From Methanococci archaeon (lineage in GTDB: Archaea; AGJL01; Methanococci; Methanococcales; Methanocaldococcaceae), in NCBI GenBank assembly GCA_013153845.1, contig JAADDS010000012.1, positions 1-64,000 on the forward strand: a DNA stretch of 64,000 nucleotides, given 5' to 3'. The position numbers were made by a program, and so were the translations under genes. The notes beneath the pieces are model-generated. The model saw only the letters and a list, made by a program, of their open reading frames with translations. It was not told the DNA's origin and did not search any database. Shown piece after piece: positions 868 to 57,014 of the stretch; the stretch's first letter is position 1; each line of letters opens with the position of its first letter.

Positions 868-1000
868 GATAATCACCCATAATTTGAATCTATATCTGTG
901 TGTTTTGTGTATTATTTTACAATTATAGTGTTTTAGAATCTAAAAAACTAAGATTATTTTAAGTTAAAGCCGAAGAACCCCCCACGTAGGGGCGGTCGTC

Positions 1001-1029
1001 CTCTCGGTCCCTTGACGGGTTCCCGAGAG
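1001..1029 (-). promoter_or_regulatory. SECIS element in the vhuD 3' UTR
   Basis: On the minus strand this 29-nt hairpin has every part of the archaeal SECIS consensus: a 7-bp lower stem (CTCTCGG with CCGAGAG), a 5' GAA bulge opposite a single 3' A, an upper CCC/GGG stem and a 5-nt loop. It begins 24 nt after the vhuD stop. It sits in a larger fold: an outer helix (plus-strand AGCCGAAGA near 968-976 with TCTTCGGCT near 1045-1053) and a second CCCC/GGGG hairpin near 977-991. In archaea such 3'-UTR hairpins direct UGA decoding as selenocysteine. Confidence 0.93.
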
Positions 1030-1052
1030 AACTCATCCCTTTAATCTTCGGC

Positions 1053-1454
1053 TTATTCTTTGAGAGGGTTAGGTCCGAGTTTTTCTATTCTTGAGGTCAT
1101 TTCGTTAACGGCGGAGACGAATTTATCTGCCTCAGCAGCAGACATGAAAAACATATCTATTCTTTCTCCACCGATTCCTAATTCATCTAATAATTGTTGG
1201 GTGAACCTAACCCTCTCCTCAGCTTTAAAGTTTCCTGTTTCGTAAGCACATTCTCCTTTTTTTCACCCTACAACCATAACCGCGTCGGCTCCCTTCTGGA
1301 AAGCTCTTAAAGCATAGGTTATGTCGAATTTACCTGTGCATGGGAGCCTTACGATTCTTACGGTTGCAGGGTATTGCATTCTGCTTGTCCCTGCTAAATC
1401 AGCAGCCCCATATCCTCATTGATAGCAACAGAAGGCAATTATTACAGGATCCAT
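1053..1454 (-). CDS. vhuD: Selenoprotein VhuD (hydrogenase iron-sulfur subunit, two UGA codons)
   Basis: Fe-S subunit linking the F420-non-reducing hydrogenase to HdrA. Read from ATG at 1454 (ribosome-binding site GGTGATCAAT) it has 133 residues with two in-frame UGA codons, at 1416-1418 (residue 13, after FCCYQ) and 1263-1265 (residue 64, before KKGEC). Both fall where the MvhD/VhuD family has conserved cysteines (CCYQC and GCKKGEC contexts). Sequence on both sides of each UGA is family-like (GYGAADLAGTSR; RIVRLPCTGK), so these are selenocysteines, not breaks. An archaeal SECIS follows the stop at once. Standard ORF calling would miss this gene. It lies between hdrA and vhuG on the same strand. 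Confidence 0.93.
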
Positions 1455-1546
1455 ATTGATCACCGGGTAATTTTAATTTTTTTAATTTATTTAATTTTTT
1501 ATCTTATTTTTTATATTTCACATTTTTTCAAATATCTGGTTTTATC

Positions 1547-1563
1547 AGCACCTTTTCGGTGCC
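1547..1563 (-). other. Small hairpin downstream of hdrA, possible variant SECIS
   Basis: Minus-strand GGCACC-GAAAA-GGTGCT hairpin, 47 nt after the hdrA stop. Its position suits a 3'-UTR SECIS for the hdrA UGA, but it lacks the canonical GAA/A internal bulge below a short GC stem; the flanking bases are ATGA on one side and GAT on the other. It could be a divergent SECIS, a processing signal or an attenuator. The function is undecided. Confidence 0.4.
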
Positions 1564-1609
1564 TCATCTAAACATAAATCGCTATTTTAGTTGTTGTTTA
1601 GTTTTTTGA

Positions 1610-3586
1610 CTATTTTGCTTCTAATTTTTGGTGTGCTTCTAATATACCATCGACAAATGCGATCACTTGCTCGTCTCTGTAGTATCTTAGTTGCATTGCT
1701 CCACTTGGACAAGCTCCTGCACATGCACCGCATCCTTTACATGCAACGTCATTAACTTGGGCAATTAAGTGTCCGTCTTTCTCTACATAAGTTATAGCGT
1801 TGTATGGACACATTTTAGCACAAACTTGGCATCCTCCACAGACATCTTCATCAACAACAGCTCTGATCATCTCTATCTTAAACTGCCCCTGAGCCATTGG
1901 TATTGAGACAGCACTTGCAGCTCCTTTTGCCTGAGCCACTGTGTCTGGAATATCCTTAGGCCCCTGAGCAACTCCTGCAATTGCTACTCCATCAACTTTC
2001 GTGTTGACTGGGGCTAATTTTGGATGTAGTTCTTTGAAAAATCCATCTGGACTTAGTTCTAAACCGAGCATCTTAGCCAATTTTGGATTATCTGGTCTTG
2101 GAGATAATCCAGCTGATAATACAACTAAGTCCGCTTCGATCTCTACGATCTCTCCTAATAATGTATCCTCTACTCTAACAAGTAAGTTTTTCGTTTCTGG
2201 ATCTTCCATTATACAGGCAGGTCTTCCTCTAATAAACTTAACTCCAAACTGTTCTTGTGCTCTTCTGTAATATTCTTCATAACCTTTTCCAAAGGATCTG
2301 ATGTCCATGTAGCAGATATATACCTCTGTGTTTGGATCGTGCTGTTTCATTAATTGAGCGTTCTTTAAAGCGAACATACAGCAGATTCTTGAACAGTAGT
2401 GTTTTCCAACTTTCGCATCTCTTGAACCGACACACTGTATAAACACTACTCTATGAGGATGCTTTCCATCGCTTGGTCTTATTTCATGCCCTCCTGTTGG
2501 ACCTGCAGGATTGATCATTCTCTCTAATTCCAAGGTTGTTATAACGTTGTCATAAATTCCATATCCGTATTCTTCTTTTAATGTGCAATCAAATTCGTCA
2601 TAACCAACTGCACAGATAATTGTTCCTACTTTTAGTTTTATCTCTTCTGGTTTTTGATCGTATCTTATGGCTCCTGGACCACAGGCCTTTTCACATAATC
2701 CACATCTTATACAGTGGTCCATATCTATGGTATAGACGAGAGGAATTGCCTGTGCAAATGGAACGTAAATAGCTTTTCTCGTCCCTAAACCTAAATCAAA
2801 CTCGTTAGGAACTTCGATTGGACATACCGCAGCACAAGCTCCACAACCAGTGCAGATATCTTCATCCACATATCTTGGTTTTTTCTCTATGGTGACTTCA
2901 AAGTTTCCAATGAATCCTTCTACATTTTTAACTTCAGCGTAAGTGATAAGTTCAACGTTGGGGTGGTTTGCAACGCTAACCATCTTTGGGGCCAAAATTC
3001 ACAGTGCACAGTCATCGGTTGGGAATGTCTTGGCAAGTTGTGCCATTCTTCCTCCGATGGATGGTTCTTTATCTACAAGATAAACTTTATAACCTTGATC
3101 TCCTAAGTCGAGAGCTGCTTGAATTCCTGCAATACCTCCTCCAATGATTAAGCAAGATTTATCAACTTCTACAATTTTTTGAGGAACATCTTCTAATCTT
3201 TTAGCTCTCTCAACAGCTCCTGCAACTAATTCCATTGCTTTTTTAGTTGCTTTTTCTCTGTCGTTCATGTGAACAAAAGAGCAGTGTTCTCTGATGTTAA
3301 CGAATTCTAAGTAGTAAGGGGATAATCCAGCGTCTTTTATACAGTTTCTAAAAGTTGGCTCGTGTATTTTTGGTGTACACGCTGCAACAACAACTCTATC
3401 AAGGTTGTATTCTTTTATTGCCTCTTTAATTAGGTTTTGTCCTGGGTCTGCACACATGAATGGATACGTTTTTGCTACTACTACTCCATCAAGTTTTTCT
3501 GCAAAGTCCCTTACTGCTTCACAATCAACGACACCGTTGATGTTTGCTCCACAGTAGCAGACAAATACCCCAACTCTTGGGGACAT
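1610..3586 (-). CDS. hdrA: Selenoprotein HdrA, heterodisulfide reductase subunit A
   Basis: Flavin-containing core of the soluble heterodisulfide reductase, which bifurcates electrons between ferredoxin and CoM-S-S-CoB with the Vhu hydrogenase. The 658-aa frame contains one UGA at 2999-3001 (residue 196, context DDCAL-Sec-ILAPKM), the place of a conserved HdrA cysteine. Visible features: N-terminal [15 protein letters not shown] dinucleotide motif [10 protein letters not shown] near 150, and four [4Fe-4S] motifs, two near 245 and 293 and two at the C-terminus near 583 and 614. Start ATG 3586 follows an ideal GGAGGTGA site. It is the first gene of the hdrA-vhuD-vhuG run. Treating the halves as separate genes would be wrong, because the protein alignment continues straight through the UGA. 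Confidence 0.95.
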
Positions 3587-3638
3587 AGATTCACCTCCAA
3601 AGAATAGAAATCACAATCAATTAATTAGGTGGATTCCT

Positions 3639-5182: not shown

Positions 5183-6430
5183 TTAGGTTCCTTCTTTCCA
5201 GTCCTCTAAGTATCTTTTTTGTTCTTCGGTTAATTCGTCAATTTCTATTCCCATGGCGTTTAATTTTAAAGAAGCGATCATTAAATCTTGCTCGTATGGG
5301 ATGCGATAAACTCTTGGTTCTAATTTTTCATGATTTTTTAGTATATATTCGGCAGATAGGGCTTGATTTGCAAAACTCATATCCATAACTTCACACGGGT
5401 GCCCATCTGCACAAGCCAGATTAACCAATCTTCCTTCTCCTAAAAGATAGATTTTTTTATCTCCTAAATCGTATTCTGTTATACATTTCCTAACCTCTTT
5501 TATTGATTTTGCCATTTCGCTTAATTCTTTTTTATTAATCTCATTATCAAAGTGTCCTGCGTTAGATAAAATTGCACCATCTTTCATTTTTAATATATGC
5601 TCTTTTCTGATAACGTCTTTACATCCAGTTGTTGTTATAAATATATCTCCAATCTCCGCGGCCTTTTCCATTTTCATTACTCTAAATCCATCCATTCTCG
5701 CTTCTAATGCTCTTATTGGGTTTACTTCTGTTATAACAACCTCCGCTCCTAAGCCCTTGGCTCTCATAGCAACTCCTCTACCACACCACCCATAACCAGC
5801 AACAACAACGGTTTTTCCTGCAATTAATAAATTTGTAGATCTTAAAATTCCATCTAAGGCACTCTGCCCGGTTCCGTATCGGTTGTCAAATAGGTGTTTT
5901 GTATATGCATCATTTACATCCATGACTGGAAATTTTAAAGCTCCTTCTCTTTCCATTGCCTTCAATCTAATTATTCCAGTTGTTGTTTCCTCACAACCGC
6001 CCATTATATTATCCAAGAGTTCAGTTCTCTTTGTATGTAATAAAAATATTAAATCGCAACCATCGTCTATAACAATATCTGGTTTGTGGTCTAAAACTTT
6101 ATTTAAATTTTCGTAATATTCTTCAACTGTCTCTCCTCTCCATGCATAAACATGCATTCCTTTTTTAGCACATGCAGCGGCAACATCATCCTGAGTAGAT
6201 AAAGGATTACAGCCAGTTATAGCAATTTTTGCCCCTCCCTCCATTAATGTTTCTGCTAAAACAGCCGTCTTTGCTTCCAAATGTAAAGCCATTCCTATCG
6301 TTATTCCTTTAAATGGTTTTTCTTCTTTGAATCTTTCTCTAATTAATCCTAAAACAGGCATGTGTTGTTTTGCCCATTGTATTTTTTTCTCTCCATCTTT
6401 CCATAGGTTTATGTCTTTAACTGCATACAT
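5183..6430 (-). CDS. ahcY: Adenosylhomocysteinase family (S-inosylhomocysteine hydrolase in M. jannaschii)
   Basis: NAD-dependent hydrolase of the S-adenosylhomocysteine family that recycles the product inhibitor of methyltransferases. Motifs: substrate-domain [10 protein letters not shown] and [10 protein letters not shown], the NAD Rossmann signature [12 protein letters not shown] (about residue 215), and the C-terminal [12 protein letters not shown] with LTEEQKRYL. At 415 aa from ATG 6430 (behind GGTGAGTAAA) it has the normal archaeal length. The M. jannaschii homologue is reported to prefer S-inosylhomocysteine made by a deaminase; whether this one shares that preference cannot be read from sequence. 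Monocistronic. An alternative GTG at 6439 overlaps the ribosome-binding site and is rejected. Confidence 0.95.
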
Positions 6431-38871: not shown

Positions 38872-39801
38872 ATGAGGCATTTAATATCCATGAGGGATAT
38901 GGGAAAAGAAGAGATTTTGGAGATTCTTGAAGAGGCAAGAAAGATGGAAGATCTTTTAAATACAAAAAAACCTTTAAAACTATTAGAAGGAAAAATACTG
39001 GCAACTATTTTTTACGAACCATCTACAAGAACCCGGTTAAGTTTTGAAACTGCAATGAAGAGGTTGGGTGGAGAAGTAATCACAATGACTGATCTGAAGA
39101 GCTCTTCCGTAGTAAAAGGAGAGAGTTTAATAGATACAATTAGGGTAATTAGTGGATATGCAGACATTATCGTTTTGAGACATCCAAATGAAGGAGCTTC
39201 AAGATTAGCAAGCGAATATTCCCAAGTTCCAATCATAAACGCAGGAGATGGGAGCAACCAACACCCTACTCAAACACTTTTAGACCTTTACACAATATTA
39301 AGAGAGATCGGGAAAATAGATGGCATAAAAATTGCCTTTGTTGGGGACTTAAAGTATGGAAGGACAGTTCATTCTTTGGTCTATGCTCTCTCGCTCTTTG
39401 ATAATGTGGAGATGTATTTCGTTTCTCCAAAGGAATTAAAAATGCCAAAAGATATAATTGATGATTTAAAGTCAAAAAATATAACCTTCTATGAGATAGA
39501 AGATTTAAAAGATATTGGAGATGATGTAGATGTATTATACATCACAAGAATACAAAAGGAGAGATTTCCAGACCCTAACGAGTATGAGAAAGTTAAAGGA
39601 TGCTATAAAATAAAAAAGGACTATGTAATTGGAAAAAAATTTATAATAATGCATCCACTACCGAGAGTTGATGAAATTGACTATGATGTTGATAACCTAC
39701 CACAAGCAAAGTATTTTAAACAAAGTTTTTATGGAATTCCTGTAAGAATGGCAATTTTAAAAAAGTTAATAGACGAAAATCAGCATGATAATGGAGGATA
39801 A
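38872..39801 (+). CDS. pyrB: Aspartate carbamoyltransferase catalytic subunit
   Basis: 309 aa, second step of pyrimidine synthesis. Carbamoyl-phosphate site STRTRLSFE (about 48), HPNEGASRLA, GDGSNQHPTQTLLDLY (about 130), and HPLPRVDEID (about 262). The regulatory subunit pyrI is not adjacent. The start of the TatD gene follows closely (5 bases after the stop). Confidence 0.96.
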   Translation: MRHLISMRDMGKEEILEILEEARKMEDLLNTKKPLKLLEGKILATIFYEPSTRTRLSFETAMKRLGGEVITMTDLKSSSVVKGESLIDTIRVISGYADIIVLRHPNEGASRLASEYSQVPIINAGDGSNQHPTQTLLDLYTILREIGKIDGIKIAFVGDLKYGRTVHSLVYALSLFDNVEMYFVSPKELKMPKDIIDDLKSKNITFYEIEDLKDIGDDVDVLYITRIQKERFPDPNEYEKVKGCYKIKKDYVIGKKFIIMHPLPRVDEIDYDVDNLPQAKYFKQSFYGIPVRMAILKKLIDENQHDNGG

Positions 39802-41811: not shown

Positions 41812-43095
41812 ATGCTAATCAAAAAAATAAGAGAACTAACAGAAGAAGAAGAAAAAAAGATCATATGCAGAAATAAATCAGATCTTGAAGATATAATGCA
41901 GATTGTCTCAAAAATATTAAACGACGTTAAAAAAAATGGAGATAGGGCAGTAAAACACTATACTAAGAAGTTTGATGGCGTTGAATTGGAAGAGCTGAGG
42001 GTGAGTAGGGAGGAGATTGAAGAGGCATATGACCTTGTTGACTATAAGGTTATTGAGGCAATAGAAAAAGCAAAAGAGAATATAATTTATTTTCACAAAA
42101 AACAAATGGAGCAAATAAATGATTTGGAAGTTAAAAAAGATGGAATTATACTGGGACAAACAGTTAGAGCAATAGAAAATGTAGGATGCTACGTTCCAGG
42201 TGGAAGAGCATTCTACCCCTCAACTGTATTGATGACCACAATACCTGCAAAAGTAGCAGGATGTAAACACATTGTTATAACCTCTCCACCCACAAAAGAG
42301 GGCAAAGGGAACCCAGCCACATTAATAGCAGGAGATATTGTAGGAGTTGATGAAATATTCAAAGTTGGAGGAGTTCAAGCAATTGGAGCATTGGCCTATG
42401 GGACAGAAACAATTCCAAAAGTAGATATAATCGTAGGGCCCGGAAACATCTATGTTACAGTAGCTAAAAAGTTAGTTTATGGAGAAGTAGCAATTGACTT
42501 TTTAGCTGGACCTTCAGAGGTTTTAATCATTGCTGATGAGACAGCCAATGCAGAGTTCGTTGCACTGGACTTTATCGCACAGGCAGAACACGATCCTAAC
42601 GCTTCCTGTATAATAACAACAACATCGGAAGATAAAGCATTAGAAATAAAAGAAAAAATCTTGGAAGAGTTAAATAGGGCCGAAAGAAAGGAAATAATTA
42701 ACAATGCATTAAAAAACTCTGCAATCCTTATCGGAAGTTTGGAAGAGTGTATAAACTTCTCTAACAAATACGCTCCAGAACACCTCGAGATATTGACTAA
42801 AAACCCAGAAGATATTTTAAAGAAGATAGATCATGCAGGAAGCGTATTTTTAGGAGAATATAGTCCCGTTCCAGTTGGGGACTATGCCTCTGGAACAAAC
42901 CACGTTTTGCCAACTTCCCAATTTGCAAGAATGAGTTCTGGATTGAATGTAGAGACGTTTTTAAAGAAAATAACTTATCAAAAATTGGATAAAGAAAGTT
43001 TAAAACAGATTTCTGATATTGTTATTACATTGGCAGAGGCAGAAGGATTATTTGGACATGCAGAAGCAGTTAGAAGAAGAATACTTAAAAAATAG
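41812..43095 (+). CDS. hisD: Histidinol dehydrogenase
   Basis: 427 aa, last two oxidation steps of histidine synthesis, Zn- and NAD-dependent. Motifs: NVGCYVPGGRAFYPST (about 120), AGPSEVLIIADE (about 230), AEHDPNAS (about 257), NKYAPEHLEI (about 320) and DYASGTNHVLPT (about 360). Start ATG 41812 follows AGGTGAAAGG. The stop TAG is followed at once by TGA and by the same-frame restriction-gene fragment. Confidence 0.96.
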   Translation: MLIKKIRELTEEEEKKIICRNKSDLEDIMQIVSKILNDVKKNGDRAVKHYTKKFDGVELEELRVSREEIEEAYDLVDYKVIEAIEKAKENIIYFHKKQMEQINDLEVKKDGIILGQTVRAIENVGCYVPGGRAFYPSTVLMTTIPAKVAGCKHIVITSPPTKEGKGNPATLIAGDIVGVDEIFKVGGVQAIGALAYGTETIPKVDIIVGPGNIYVTVAKKLVYGEVAIDFLAGPSEVLIIADETANAEFVALDFIAQAEHDPNASCIITTTSEDKALEIKEKILEELNRAERKEIINNALKNSAILIGSLEECINFSNKYAPEHLEILTKNPEDILKKIDHAGSVFLGEYSPVPVGDYASGTNHVLPTSQFARMSSGLNVETFLKKITYQKLDKESLKQISDIVITLAEAEGLFGHAEAVRRRILKK

Positions 43096-43746: not shown

Positions 43747-44620
43747 ACGCATCAAGAGTTATTATATTTTTATTTTCTTTTACATTATCAAATTTTCTAT
43801 CTGTTTTTAAAAGTTCTTTTTTTATTCTCTCCTCTGCAACTCTGCAATAGTATTCATCAATCTCAAAGCCAATATAATTAACTCCCAATCTAATGCATGC
43901 AACTGCCGTGCTTCCAATTCCAATAAATGGGTCTAAAACAAGATTTGTCTTTTTAATGCCATGTAATTTAATGCACATCTCTGGAAGTTTTGGAGGGAAT
44001 GTTGCCGGATGTGGTCTCTCTTTCTCTTTTGATTGAATTGTTTCATAAGGGATAAACCAAGTGTTCCCTCTATCTCTTAAATCTCCTTTTCTATTAAATC
44101 TCTTTATATTGCTTTTATCTTGATAAGGGACACCAATTGCTAATTTATCCAACTTAACATTTCCATTTTTTGTGAAATGGAAAATATATTCATGCATTAT
44201 ACTTAAAAATCTATCACTGTTTATTGGTTTGTAATGTCCCACAGCAATATCTCCGATAATATTTGGATAATCTCCCACATCTTCTTTTTGTATTGCGATT
44301 GATTTTATCCAATGAATCGTGTTTTGTAATTTAAAATGTTTTCTTATAACATTGGCAACATCAAAGGCGATCCATGGGTCTTTTGCAGTATAACCAACAT
44401 TTATAAAAAATGAGCCATCATCTTTTAACACTCTCTTTATCTCCCCAACAACTTCTTCAATCCAATTTAAATAATCCTCTCTGCTTAAATTATCAGAATA
44501 TTTATTGTATCTTATACCAATGTTATAGGGTGGAGAGGTAATAACAACATCAATTGATTTATCTTTTAATTGTTTCATCCCTTCTAAGCAATCCATACAG
44601 TAAATTTTGTTTATCTCCAT
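43739..44620 (-). CDS. DNA N4-cytosine methyltransferase of a type II R-M system
   Basis: 293 aa. Catalytic TSPPYN (about 29-34) comes before the SAM motif [14 protein letters not shown] (about 234), the order of beta-class enzymes; TSPPY points to N4-methylcytosine. Start ATG 44620 follows AAGGGATAAAG. Complete, while the partner nuclease is 5'-truncated. The recognition site cannot be read; the Mja enzymes of M. jannaschii that cut CTAG or GTAC are candidates for comparison. Confidence 0.9.
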
Positions 44621-55880: not shown

Positions 55881-56930
55881 ATGGTTGAAAAAGAAAAAGA
55901 TATAAAATTAACAAGTTTAGTTAAACTTCACGGATGAGCTTGTAAACTTCCCAGCACCGAATTAGAATATTTAGTAAAAGGGATAGTTTTGGATGAAGAT
56001 CTTGCTGAAAAAAATATAATTGTTGGACTTGGAGATGATGCATCAGTTATAAAAAGGAATGGATTGGTTATTGCTAAAACAGTGGATGTTTTTACACCGA
56101 TCGTTGACGATCCTTACATACAGGGAAAAATAGCTGCATGCAACTCAACAAGTGATATTTACGCAATGGGTTTGTTAGATATAATTGGTGTTTTGGTAAT
56201 ACTCGGCATTCCAGAAAAACTTCCGATAGATATTGTTAAAAAAATGCTAAATGGATTTCAGGACTTTTGCAGAGAAAACAACACCACGATCGTAGGAGGA
56301 CATACAATAATGAATCCATGGCCACTGATTGGAGGGGCAGTAACAGGAGTTGGAAAAGAAGAAGAAGTTTTGACAAAGTCAGGAGCAGAAGAAGGAGATG
56401 TTTTAATCCTAACAAAGCCATTAGGAACTCAGACAGCAATGGCACTTTCAAGAATTCCTGACGATTACAAAGAACTGATCGGCATAGATGAAGAGGAAAT
56501 GAACTACATAATAAATAAGGCAATAGAGTTGATGACAACCTCCAACAGATATGCGTTAAAATCTTTAAGGAATGCAGAAAAAAAAGTAGGGGATAAAATA
56601 GCAAACGCCCTTACCGATATAACAGGATTTGGACTCCTTGGTCACTCAAATGAAATGGCAAAGAATAGCAATGTGCTAATTGAAATAGATCTCCTTCCAT
56701 GTATAAAAAGAACTCCAGAACTCAGTAAAATGTTTGGACATGCGTTATTAGATGGATACGGAGCAGAAACAGCTGGTGGTTTATTAATCTCTGCAAAGAG
56801 CGACTATAAAGATGATTTAATAGAAGAACTTAGAAAAAATAAAGTTTATGCCTTTGAAGTTGGAAAAGTTGTAAAAAAAGGAGAAGGTAGGGCAATTTTA
56901 AGCAAAGATGTTAAAATTGTTGAGGTTTAA
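55881..56930 (+). CDS. selD: Selenide, water dikinase SelD (selenoprotein)
   Basis: 349 aa. Makes selenophosphate from selenide and ATP for selenocysteine synthesis. Start ATG 55881 follows GGTGAAATC. An in-frame UGA at 55935-55937 (residue 19, context KLHG-Sec-ACKLPS) takes the place of the catalytic cysteine in the usual GCGCK motif. Then VGLGDDASVI, TVDVFTPIVDDPYIQGKIAA, NSTSDIYAMG, GGHTI and DITGFGLLGHS follow as expected. A SECIS lies 51 nt after the stop. The first 35 residues are needed; a frame from 55989 would miss the active site. Confidence 0.96.
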
Positions 56931-56954
56931 AATACAATTCGGTGCTGGGAAGTT
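55945..56954. repeat. Perfect 19-nt inverted repeat spanning selD
   Basis: AACTTCCCAGCACCGAATT at 55945-55963 (in the coding sequence, starting 8 nt after the selD UGA) is the exact reverse complement of 56936-56954, which begins 6 nt after the selD stop and ends 27 nt before the SECIS. 19 of 19 bases match and the match ends on both sides, so it is a discrete repeat pair. In RNA it would bring the 3' UTR with the SECIS next to the UGA; in DNA it would flank an invertible 972-bp segment. Confidence 0.93.
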
Positions 56955-56981
56955 GAAACAAAGATAAAAATCAAAAGTATC

Positions 56982-57014
56982 GGATGTGCCGAACCCATTT
57001 TGGGAGGCACATCC
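56982..57014 (+). promoter_or_regulatory. SECIS element of selD
   Basis: Textbook archaeal SECIS: lower stem GGATGTGCC (56982-56990) with GGCACATCC (57006-57014), 5' GAA bulge at 56991-56993 opposite a single A at 57005, upper stem CCC/GGG and a 5-nt loop. It sits in the 3' UTR, between selD and the convergent gene starting at 57022. Confidence 0.97.

Follow-up and report, generated by a model that had tools for sequence, protein, structure and literature searches.

Both the bacterial SECIS and the eukaryotic SRE are local hairpins located just downstream of the UGA codon that is decoded as selenocysteine (Sec). In archaea, the closest described arrangement is that of the fdhA1 gene of Methanococcus maripaludis, in which the SECIS lies in the 5' UTR between stretches of 7 and 10 nt that are complementary to the ORF, a pairing that would place the SECIS 43 nt after the UGA; these flanks are conserved, and are longer in thermophilic Methanococcales (PMC11881835, 2025). 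When assayed with a reporter, the flanks brought no gain in total activity and one of about twofold per mRNA, with the mRNA level being threefold lower (PMC11881835). The same paper reports such flanks for fdhA1 only, and no text on helices in selD, hdrA, vhuD or fwuB was found in it. A SECIS of M. maripaludis functions at a distance of 520-679 nt from the UGA without a helix (PMC9622424), which counts against the need for a tether. Outside archaea, stop-codon readthrough in tombusviruses employs a long-range RNA-RNA interaction (PMC3234231). An earlier note on the DNA analyzed here, made from the sequence of the selD locus, proposed a long-range helix between the UGA and the SECIS and knew of no described archaeal example; given the fdhA1 flanks, that statement calls for correction.

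The window, that is, the whole analyzed stretch of 64,000 nt from a Methanococci archaeon of the family Methanocaldococcaceae (contig JAADDS010000012.1), encompasses a selD gene that shares 75-98% identity with the selD genes of the genus, each of which contains one internal TGA. The relevant features are as follows.

55881-56930, plus strand: selD (selenophosphate synthetase) with an in-frame Sec UGA, 349 aa when the UGA is read as Sec
55935-55937, plus strand: Sec UGA codon of selD (HG-U-ACK), at a position common to all relatives
55945-55963, plus strand: 5' arm of the putative tethering helix, within the CDS (codons K L P S T E L)
56936-56954, plus strand: 3' arm of the putative tethering helix, between the stop codon and the SECIS
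56982-57014, plus strand: selD SECIS (GAA/A kink-turn-like motif between G-C clamps), detected by a structure scan and also present 3' of selD in relatives

The two arms (AACTTCCCAGCACCGAATT at 55945-55963 and AATTCGGTGCTGGGAAGTT at 56936-56954) are complementary at 19 of 19 positions, with 972 nt in between. A search of the whole genome with up to 3 mismatches identified these two sites only, and the reversed control pattern of the arm had no match in the genome. The inverted repeat described in the earlier note is thus confirmed, as are its spacings: the 5' arm begins 8 nt after the UGA, and the 3' arm begins 6 nt after the stop codon (56928-56930) and ends 27 nt ahead of the SECIS. Among the inverted repeats within 3.5 kb in the window, this one has the top score, 47 versus 43 for the runner-up. 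For 714 windows of ordinary genes, each compared with its own 3' region, the scores had a 99th percentile of 30.5 and a maximum of 35; a chance repeat was rejected on the grounds of the covariation and the recurrence described below. The runner-up is a 20-nt repeat (42272-42291 and 44528-44547, 2.2 kb apart, with a similar stretch at 39065-39087) that resembles a coding motif common to related genes on opposite strands.

Folding of the full selD mRNA, which the earlier note had recommended, placed the helix in the minimum free energy structure at 37 C, with 19/19 pairs and a mean probability of 0.98; at 80 C, 16/19 pairs were retained with a probability of 0.81. Rfam yielded no relevant family match around the locus. 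The 5' arm is not subject to extra synonymous conservation (0.65 versus the gene mean of 0.61), so this argument was dropped for selD, and its codons CCC and AGC, which account for 9% of their families in the window, are only mildly unusual.

All 15 selD genes found in Methanocaldococcus and Methanotorris, namely 13 of the family found with the UGA and two from genomes that we take to belong to Methanotorris (two genera and two families altogether), contain a helix of 17-22 bp that joins the same two places. The helix starts at 9-13 nt counted from the U of the UGA, and its 3' arm is confined to the segment between the stop codon and approximately 20-25 nt past it, upstream of the SECIS. The arms vary among species mainly at synonymous codon positions (CTT/CTG/CTC, AGC/AGT, ACC/ACT/GCT, GAATTA/GAGTTA/GAGCTT), and each time the 3' arm changes to match. 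In the 14 distinct rows of an alignment in which the register of the 3' arm was set by the helix itself, which favors the helix, but which is nonetheless gapless, 96.6% of the cells are paired, and 7 of the 19 pairs show double compensatory changes (23 cells). This covariation score was reached by none of 500 shuffles, and when the register was slid by 1-3, only 21-44% of the cells paired. The alignment of selD and its 3' UTR that had been suggested as a check revealed a 3' arm that does vary, but with compensation. No such helix was found in selD of Methanothermococcus and Methanococcus, where the UGA and the SECIS are about 1 kb apart.

The core of the selD helix shows neither one-sided changes to another standard pair nor G-U pairs in the 14 distinct rows. 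This total lack is unusual for RNA covariation and implies either very strict selection at high temperature or template switching at the DNA level that restores the match. The missing G-U intermediates would also fit an incidental or relic repeat in which gene conversion or template switching in DNA keeps the two arms matched. However, the helix is conserved across the 15 genes, the layout recurs at the UGA and the SECIS in several genes with unrelated sequences, and compensatory changes are observed also between arms that belong to different loci or contigs (see below). We therefore consider this explanation very unlikely, and the relic of an element envisaged in the earlier note does not fit the covariation and the recurrence. 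The same note considered that the repeats might flank an invertible 972-bp DNA segment switching selD off or on. The arms are exactly identical, and a perfect inverted repeat could indeed be a recombination site, but all assemblies of the relatives' selD carry the same intact ORF orientation, the arm sequence shifts with synonymous sites between species, unlike a fixed site, and neither the unrelated arms in other genes nor the arms split over distant loci can be inversion sites, so that the probability of this scenario appears negligible.

Helices that connect the vicinity of the UGA with the SECIS are also present in hdrA, vhuD, fwuB and a fwuB paralogue (the gene names are assigned from Pfam family and motif), with sequences unrelated to the selD arms, and the flanks of the fdhA SECIS are complementary as well, at two fdhA loci. 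The helices comprise 16-35 bp in hdrA, often with a second nested helix, 15-16 bp in vhuD, 14-26 bp in fwuB, with a second one of 13 bp, and 17-19 bp in the fwuB paralogue. The 5' arm starts at 9-13 nt after the UGA in selD, 19-29 in fwuB, 28-38 in hdrA, 30-32 in the fwuB paralogue and 48 in vhuD, and the 3' arm ends shortly upstream of the SECIS in every helix-bearing gene. The nested second helices, likewise formed with the 3' UTR, lie deeper in the ORF, at +152 or +236 in hdrA (L144-L149, L174) and at +109 in fwuB (L140-L152). Along the closed helix, the path from the UGA to the GAA core is 32-114 nt (medians 44-91), compared to 237-1579 nt in the linear mRNA. No helix was detected in vhuU, with its UGA-SECIS distance of 76-90 nt, or in the HesB-like gene, with approximately 190 nt; this absence from genes with a naturally short distance was counted in favor of tethering.

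The SECIS elements were identified by a pattern search rather than with a covariance model of all SECIS, because the alignment threw the 3' strands out of register. SECIS-like matches were also obtained at fruA-like genes and at the HesB-like gene (FG-U-GGPKFG; L261-L269), in which the stop codon lies inside the SECIS stem, 186 nt past the UGA. Most complete genomes of the family contain exactly two occurrences of the SECIS-like pattern CGAACCCTCCTAACGGAGG or its variants, which presumably represent ribosomal RNA.

The earlier note found no complement comparable to that of selD for vhuD or hdrA. For vhuD, this turned out to be incorrect, given that the window gene has a complement of 15 bp, 29 nt ahead of the SECIS:

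1053-1463, minus strand: vhuD-like gene (FlpD family; PF02662 match), with two in-frame UGAs (1416-1418 and 1263-1265) in the reading frame
1203-1217, minus strand: 5' arm of the putative vhuD tethering helix, 48 nt past the second UGA
1062-1076, minus strand: 3' arm of the putative vhuD tethering helix, at the end of the CDS
998-1032, minus strand: vhuD SECIS, just 3' of the gene

The scores of the vhuD helix (35-39.5) barely exceed the control maximum of 35, so the case for this gene rests on its conservation.

What is established is a conserved, covarying complementarity with a fixed geometry in several genes, along with its joint loss with the SECIS (see below). Considering the conserved place, the double compensation and the recurrence in other genes, the sequence comparison strongly supports the RNA helix that the earlier note put forward as its first inference, and we estimate a probability of roughly 0.85 that the selD helix brings the SECIS beside the UGA and represents one instance of an arrangement that is general in thermophilic Methanococcales. 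Under this model, the arms of the selD mRNA would pair into a long-range helix in the cell, looping out approximately 970 nt of the CDS and clipping the 3'-UTR SECIS beside the Sec UGA. Because the helix end that faces the UGA also carries the SECIS, the path from the UGA to the GAA core would shrink from more than 1,000 to about 40 nt, which is similar to the 76-90 nt of the helix-free vhuU. Sec insertion at the UGA would be raised through the proximity of the SECIS or of SelB; we know of no SECIS-binding protein in archaea. If so, tethering would explain the tolerance of widely varying linear UGA-SECIS distances and provide a direct, testable answer, for thermophiles, to the question of how a far-off SECIS in the UTR acts at the UGA.

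The helix does not seem to be strictly required, since the selD genes of Methanothermococcus and Methanococcus, with about 1 kb, and the HesB-like gene, with 190 nt, lack it. Given that it would be unwound at each ribosome passage and is missing from selD in the cooler relatives, a booster appears more plausible than an absolute requirement. The selD helix is confined to the hottest genera, and the helices of hdrA and fwuB lengthen from 9-11 bp in Methanococcus through 14-26 bp in Methanothermococcus to 19-35 bp, where kept, in Methanocaldococcus and Methanotorris. At growth temperature, long and short helices have much the same predicted duplex energy: the thermophile helices come to about -8 to -17 kcal/mol at 85 C and the 11-bp mesophile helices to -14 to -17 kcal/mol at 37 C, as though the longer helices in hotter species had to survive heat. 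The hdrA gene of Methanothermococcus has a different arm, at +28, and that of Methanococcus an arm of 10-11 bp at +60; thus, the site and the sequence of the helix turn over while the geometry stays.

A ribosome pause might add to the effect of tethering, as the distance of the selD helix from the UGA is that of recoding stimulators. The arms could even serve solely to stimulate recoding from downstream, as a stem that pauses the ribosome in the manner of the SRE or of a readthrough pseudoknot, with the nearness of the SECIS being incidental. The start of the selD helix 7-10 nt after the UGA, which is the usual spacing of such stimulators, and that of an hdrA guide arm at +9 (see below) agree with this reading, but the other helices begin at a distance of 19-48 nt, the 3' arm always adjoins the SECIS, which is needless for a pure pausing stem, and in three species the arms and the SECIS have moved jointly to a new locus; on balance, we regard pausing alone as unlikely. 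A role of the conserved helix in mRNA stability, 3'-end protection or regulation, as opposed to Sec insertion, is suggested by the fact that long perfect helices change mRNA abundance, and the flanks in the fdhA1 reporter did alter the mRNA level. Those flanks, however, lowered the mRNA rather than raising it; furthermore, the position of the helices is dictated by the UGA and the SECIS and not by the gene ends, both vhuD arms being inside the CDS, and there is no helix in vhuU and the HesB-like gene, in which the SECIS is already near, or in the 714 control windows. Such a role is, in our assessment, decidedly improbable.

Tethering in cis does not account for all the genes. With regard to the window hdrA, the earlier note was right locally: neither a SECIS nor a helix was found in the 3' UTR of this gene, and none was found for the hdrA of this genome. 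The gene contains the following features.

2999-3001, minus strand: Sec UGA of the hdrA-like gene (CDS 1610-3616, minus strand), in the context CAL*ILA
2969-2992, minus strand: predicted guide-SECIS target in hdrA, nt 9-32 from the U of the UGA, complementary over 22-24 bp to a unit in the relatives' fwuB 3' UTR or to a stand-alone unit

The UGA is retained in hdrA whereas the SECIS and the helix are lost in the window genome, its near relative G013, and G003, G008 and G012; both seem weaker in G004 and G007, so that the two losses largely coincide. The SECIS-less hdrA 3' UTR keeps a hairpin (1543-1569, minus strand, in the window; also L142, L147, L151 and L152) that is flanked by box C/D-like AGATGA and CTGATG sequences, as is the intact hdrA SECIS in relatives, and could be a K-turn for L7Ae.

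In a cross-gene control, in which UGA regions were compared with the 3' regions of other genes, the top scores were those of hdrA with the fwuB 3' UTR. Between its two own arms, the fwuB 3' UTR carries TGCAACGCTAACCATCTTTGGG(G), the complement of nt 9-32 from the UGA in hdrA, and this arm is present in all nine species whose fwuB 3' UTR was read. All-against-all pairing in 15 species revealed no other convincing cross-pair among the matches listed. In G003, G008 and G012, there is no SECIS behind fwuB, as there is none behind hdrA. A search for the arms alone identified one further copy of the hdrA arm in each of these three genomes, and each of these copies is a full unit that consists of fwuB arm 2, the hdrA arm, fwuB arm 1, a short spacer, the SECIS and a T-run. 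These stand-alone units are located away from hdrA and fwuB:

L226, approximately 2733-2840, plus strand: stand-alone guide-SECIS unit
L227, approximately 5685-5800, plus strand: stand-alone guide-SECIS unit
L228, approximately 3400-3540, minus strand: stand-alone guide-SECIS unit

The G012 unit is 440 kb away from the vhu cluster and occupies a gap of about 180 nt flanked by two opposite-strand genes (FdhD family and GGR-like), the G003 unit follows a ribosomal RNA adenine dimethylase gene and is separated from fwuB by an opposite-strand HD-domain gene, and the G008 unit precedes a Thi4 gene on another contig. The arms and their targets change in concert even at these distances. In G008, GGATTCAGG with CCTGAATCC replaces GGATGTAGG with CCTACATCC in fwuB, and G003 shows the compensations GAAG/CTTC, GACG/CGTC and GTCGC/GCGAC. 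Altogether, 6 pairs between fwuB and the unit and 3 pairs between hdrA and the unit are changed on both sides, with 0 of 500 shuffles reaching the observed value in either case. In Methanocaldococcus, no other window of hdrA downstream of the UGA reaches the synonymous conservation of the guide target (0.92 versus the mean of 0.68); this does not hold in other lineages.

These observations make it fairly probable that the unit specifies a trans-acting guide-SECIS RNA of approximately 100 nt, with 5' arms that would pair downstream of Sec UGAs and a 3' part that is the SECIS. The predicted pairing involves 22-24 bp just downstream of the hdrA UGA and two sites in fwuB (17-20 and 10-14 bp). In most Methanocaldococcus, the unit resides in the fwuB 3' UTR and may also reach hdrA, about 7 kb upstream. 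In G003, G008 and G012, no SECIS besides the stand-alone unit was found that might serve both mRNAs through pairing. The unit would thus act in trans as a stand-alone element, and in cis, possibly also in trans, behind fwuB. In 11 of 13 species, a perfect (8/8) TATA-like box precedes the unit by 30-34 nt, compared to 3.5% per unit in shuffled sequence, although many of the 13 units are homologous and hence not independent. This location suggests a promoter belonging to the unit itself, also where it lies in the fwuB 3' UTR; in the species behind G012, G003 and G008, the RNA would start at the GGGGTGGGCG box. In the draft G010 (L186; contig C207), the region preceding the unit does not resemble the fwuB 3' UTR of the relatives and lacks the TATA-like box, possibly due to an insertion or an assembly fault. 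The SECIS pattern search detected no further stand-alone guides among the matches inspected, Rfam has no match at the stand-alone units, and no unit was found in the incomplete (87% complete) assembly to which the window belongs.

Alternatively to the guide unit, hdrA and fwuB of the SECIS-less species might use the vhuD or vhuU SECIS of the same operon; SECIS sharing between hdrA and frhD is discussed (PMC11227280). The stand-alone unit might also exert an antisense effect on hdrA and fwuB. If the guide-SECIS reading is true, this SECIS would be programmable through its guide arms, which would be categorically new: Sec insertion would be steered in trans by a guide RNA, a property useful for inserting selenocysteine at UGA codons of choice. 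We found no published description of a trans guide RNA for Sec insertion.

Among the known systems, the flanks of the fdhA1 SECIS resemble the helices described here most closely, in that a sequence flanking the SECIS pairs with the CDS 3' of the UGA, in selD and in the other genes, and in that the helices are longer in thermophiles (hdrA and fwuB; in selD, only the hottest genera have one). They differ in that the fdhA1 SECIS resides in the 5' UTR and is flanked on both sides, whereas selD has a single arm, only 5' of the 3'-UTR SECIS. The present analysis goes beyond fdhA1 with the 3'-UTR SECIS of selD, hdrA, vhuD and fwuB, the tested covariation and the units shared between genes; an fdhA1-type tether would thus extend from one published gene to at least five more, a generality that is new as far as we found in the literature. 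The hairpins are of the same type as the described archaeal SECIS (eaSECIS, with the GAA/A kink-turn-like motif): the selD SECIS, the vhuD SECIS and the stand-alone units all have GAA opposite A between two G-C clamps. The selD and vhuD elements lie in the UTR of their own mRNA, as in the described class, the stand-alone units of G003, G008 and G012 lie outside the UTRs of the hdrA and fwuB mRNAs, and the element as described does not include tethering arms. An RNA structure downstream of the UGA is common to these genes and to the bacterial SECIS and eukaryotic SRE, but the bacterial SECIS is a local hairpin with its apical loop 16-37 nt after the UGA, whereas here the partner strand is about 1 kb away (972 nt in selD) or belongs to another RNA. 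Readthrough in tombusviruses likewise relies on long-distance pairing of a site near the recoded stop codon with a distal element, and here the predicted pairing is backed by covariation; it differs in being viral, plain readthrough that involves no SECIS or selenocysteine, with no common descent. Box C/D and H/ACA guide RNAs combine guide arms with a functional hairpin that recruits the machinery. The putative stand-alone unit has the same architecture, with no modification enzyme, and its predicted task is the recoding of a stop codon.
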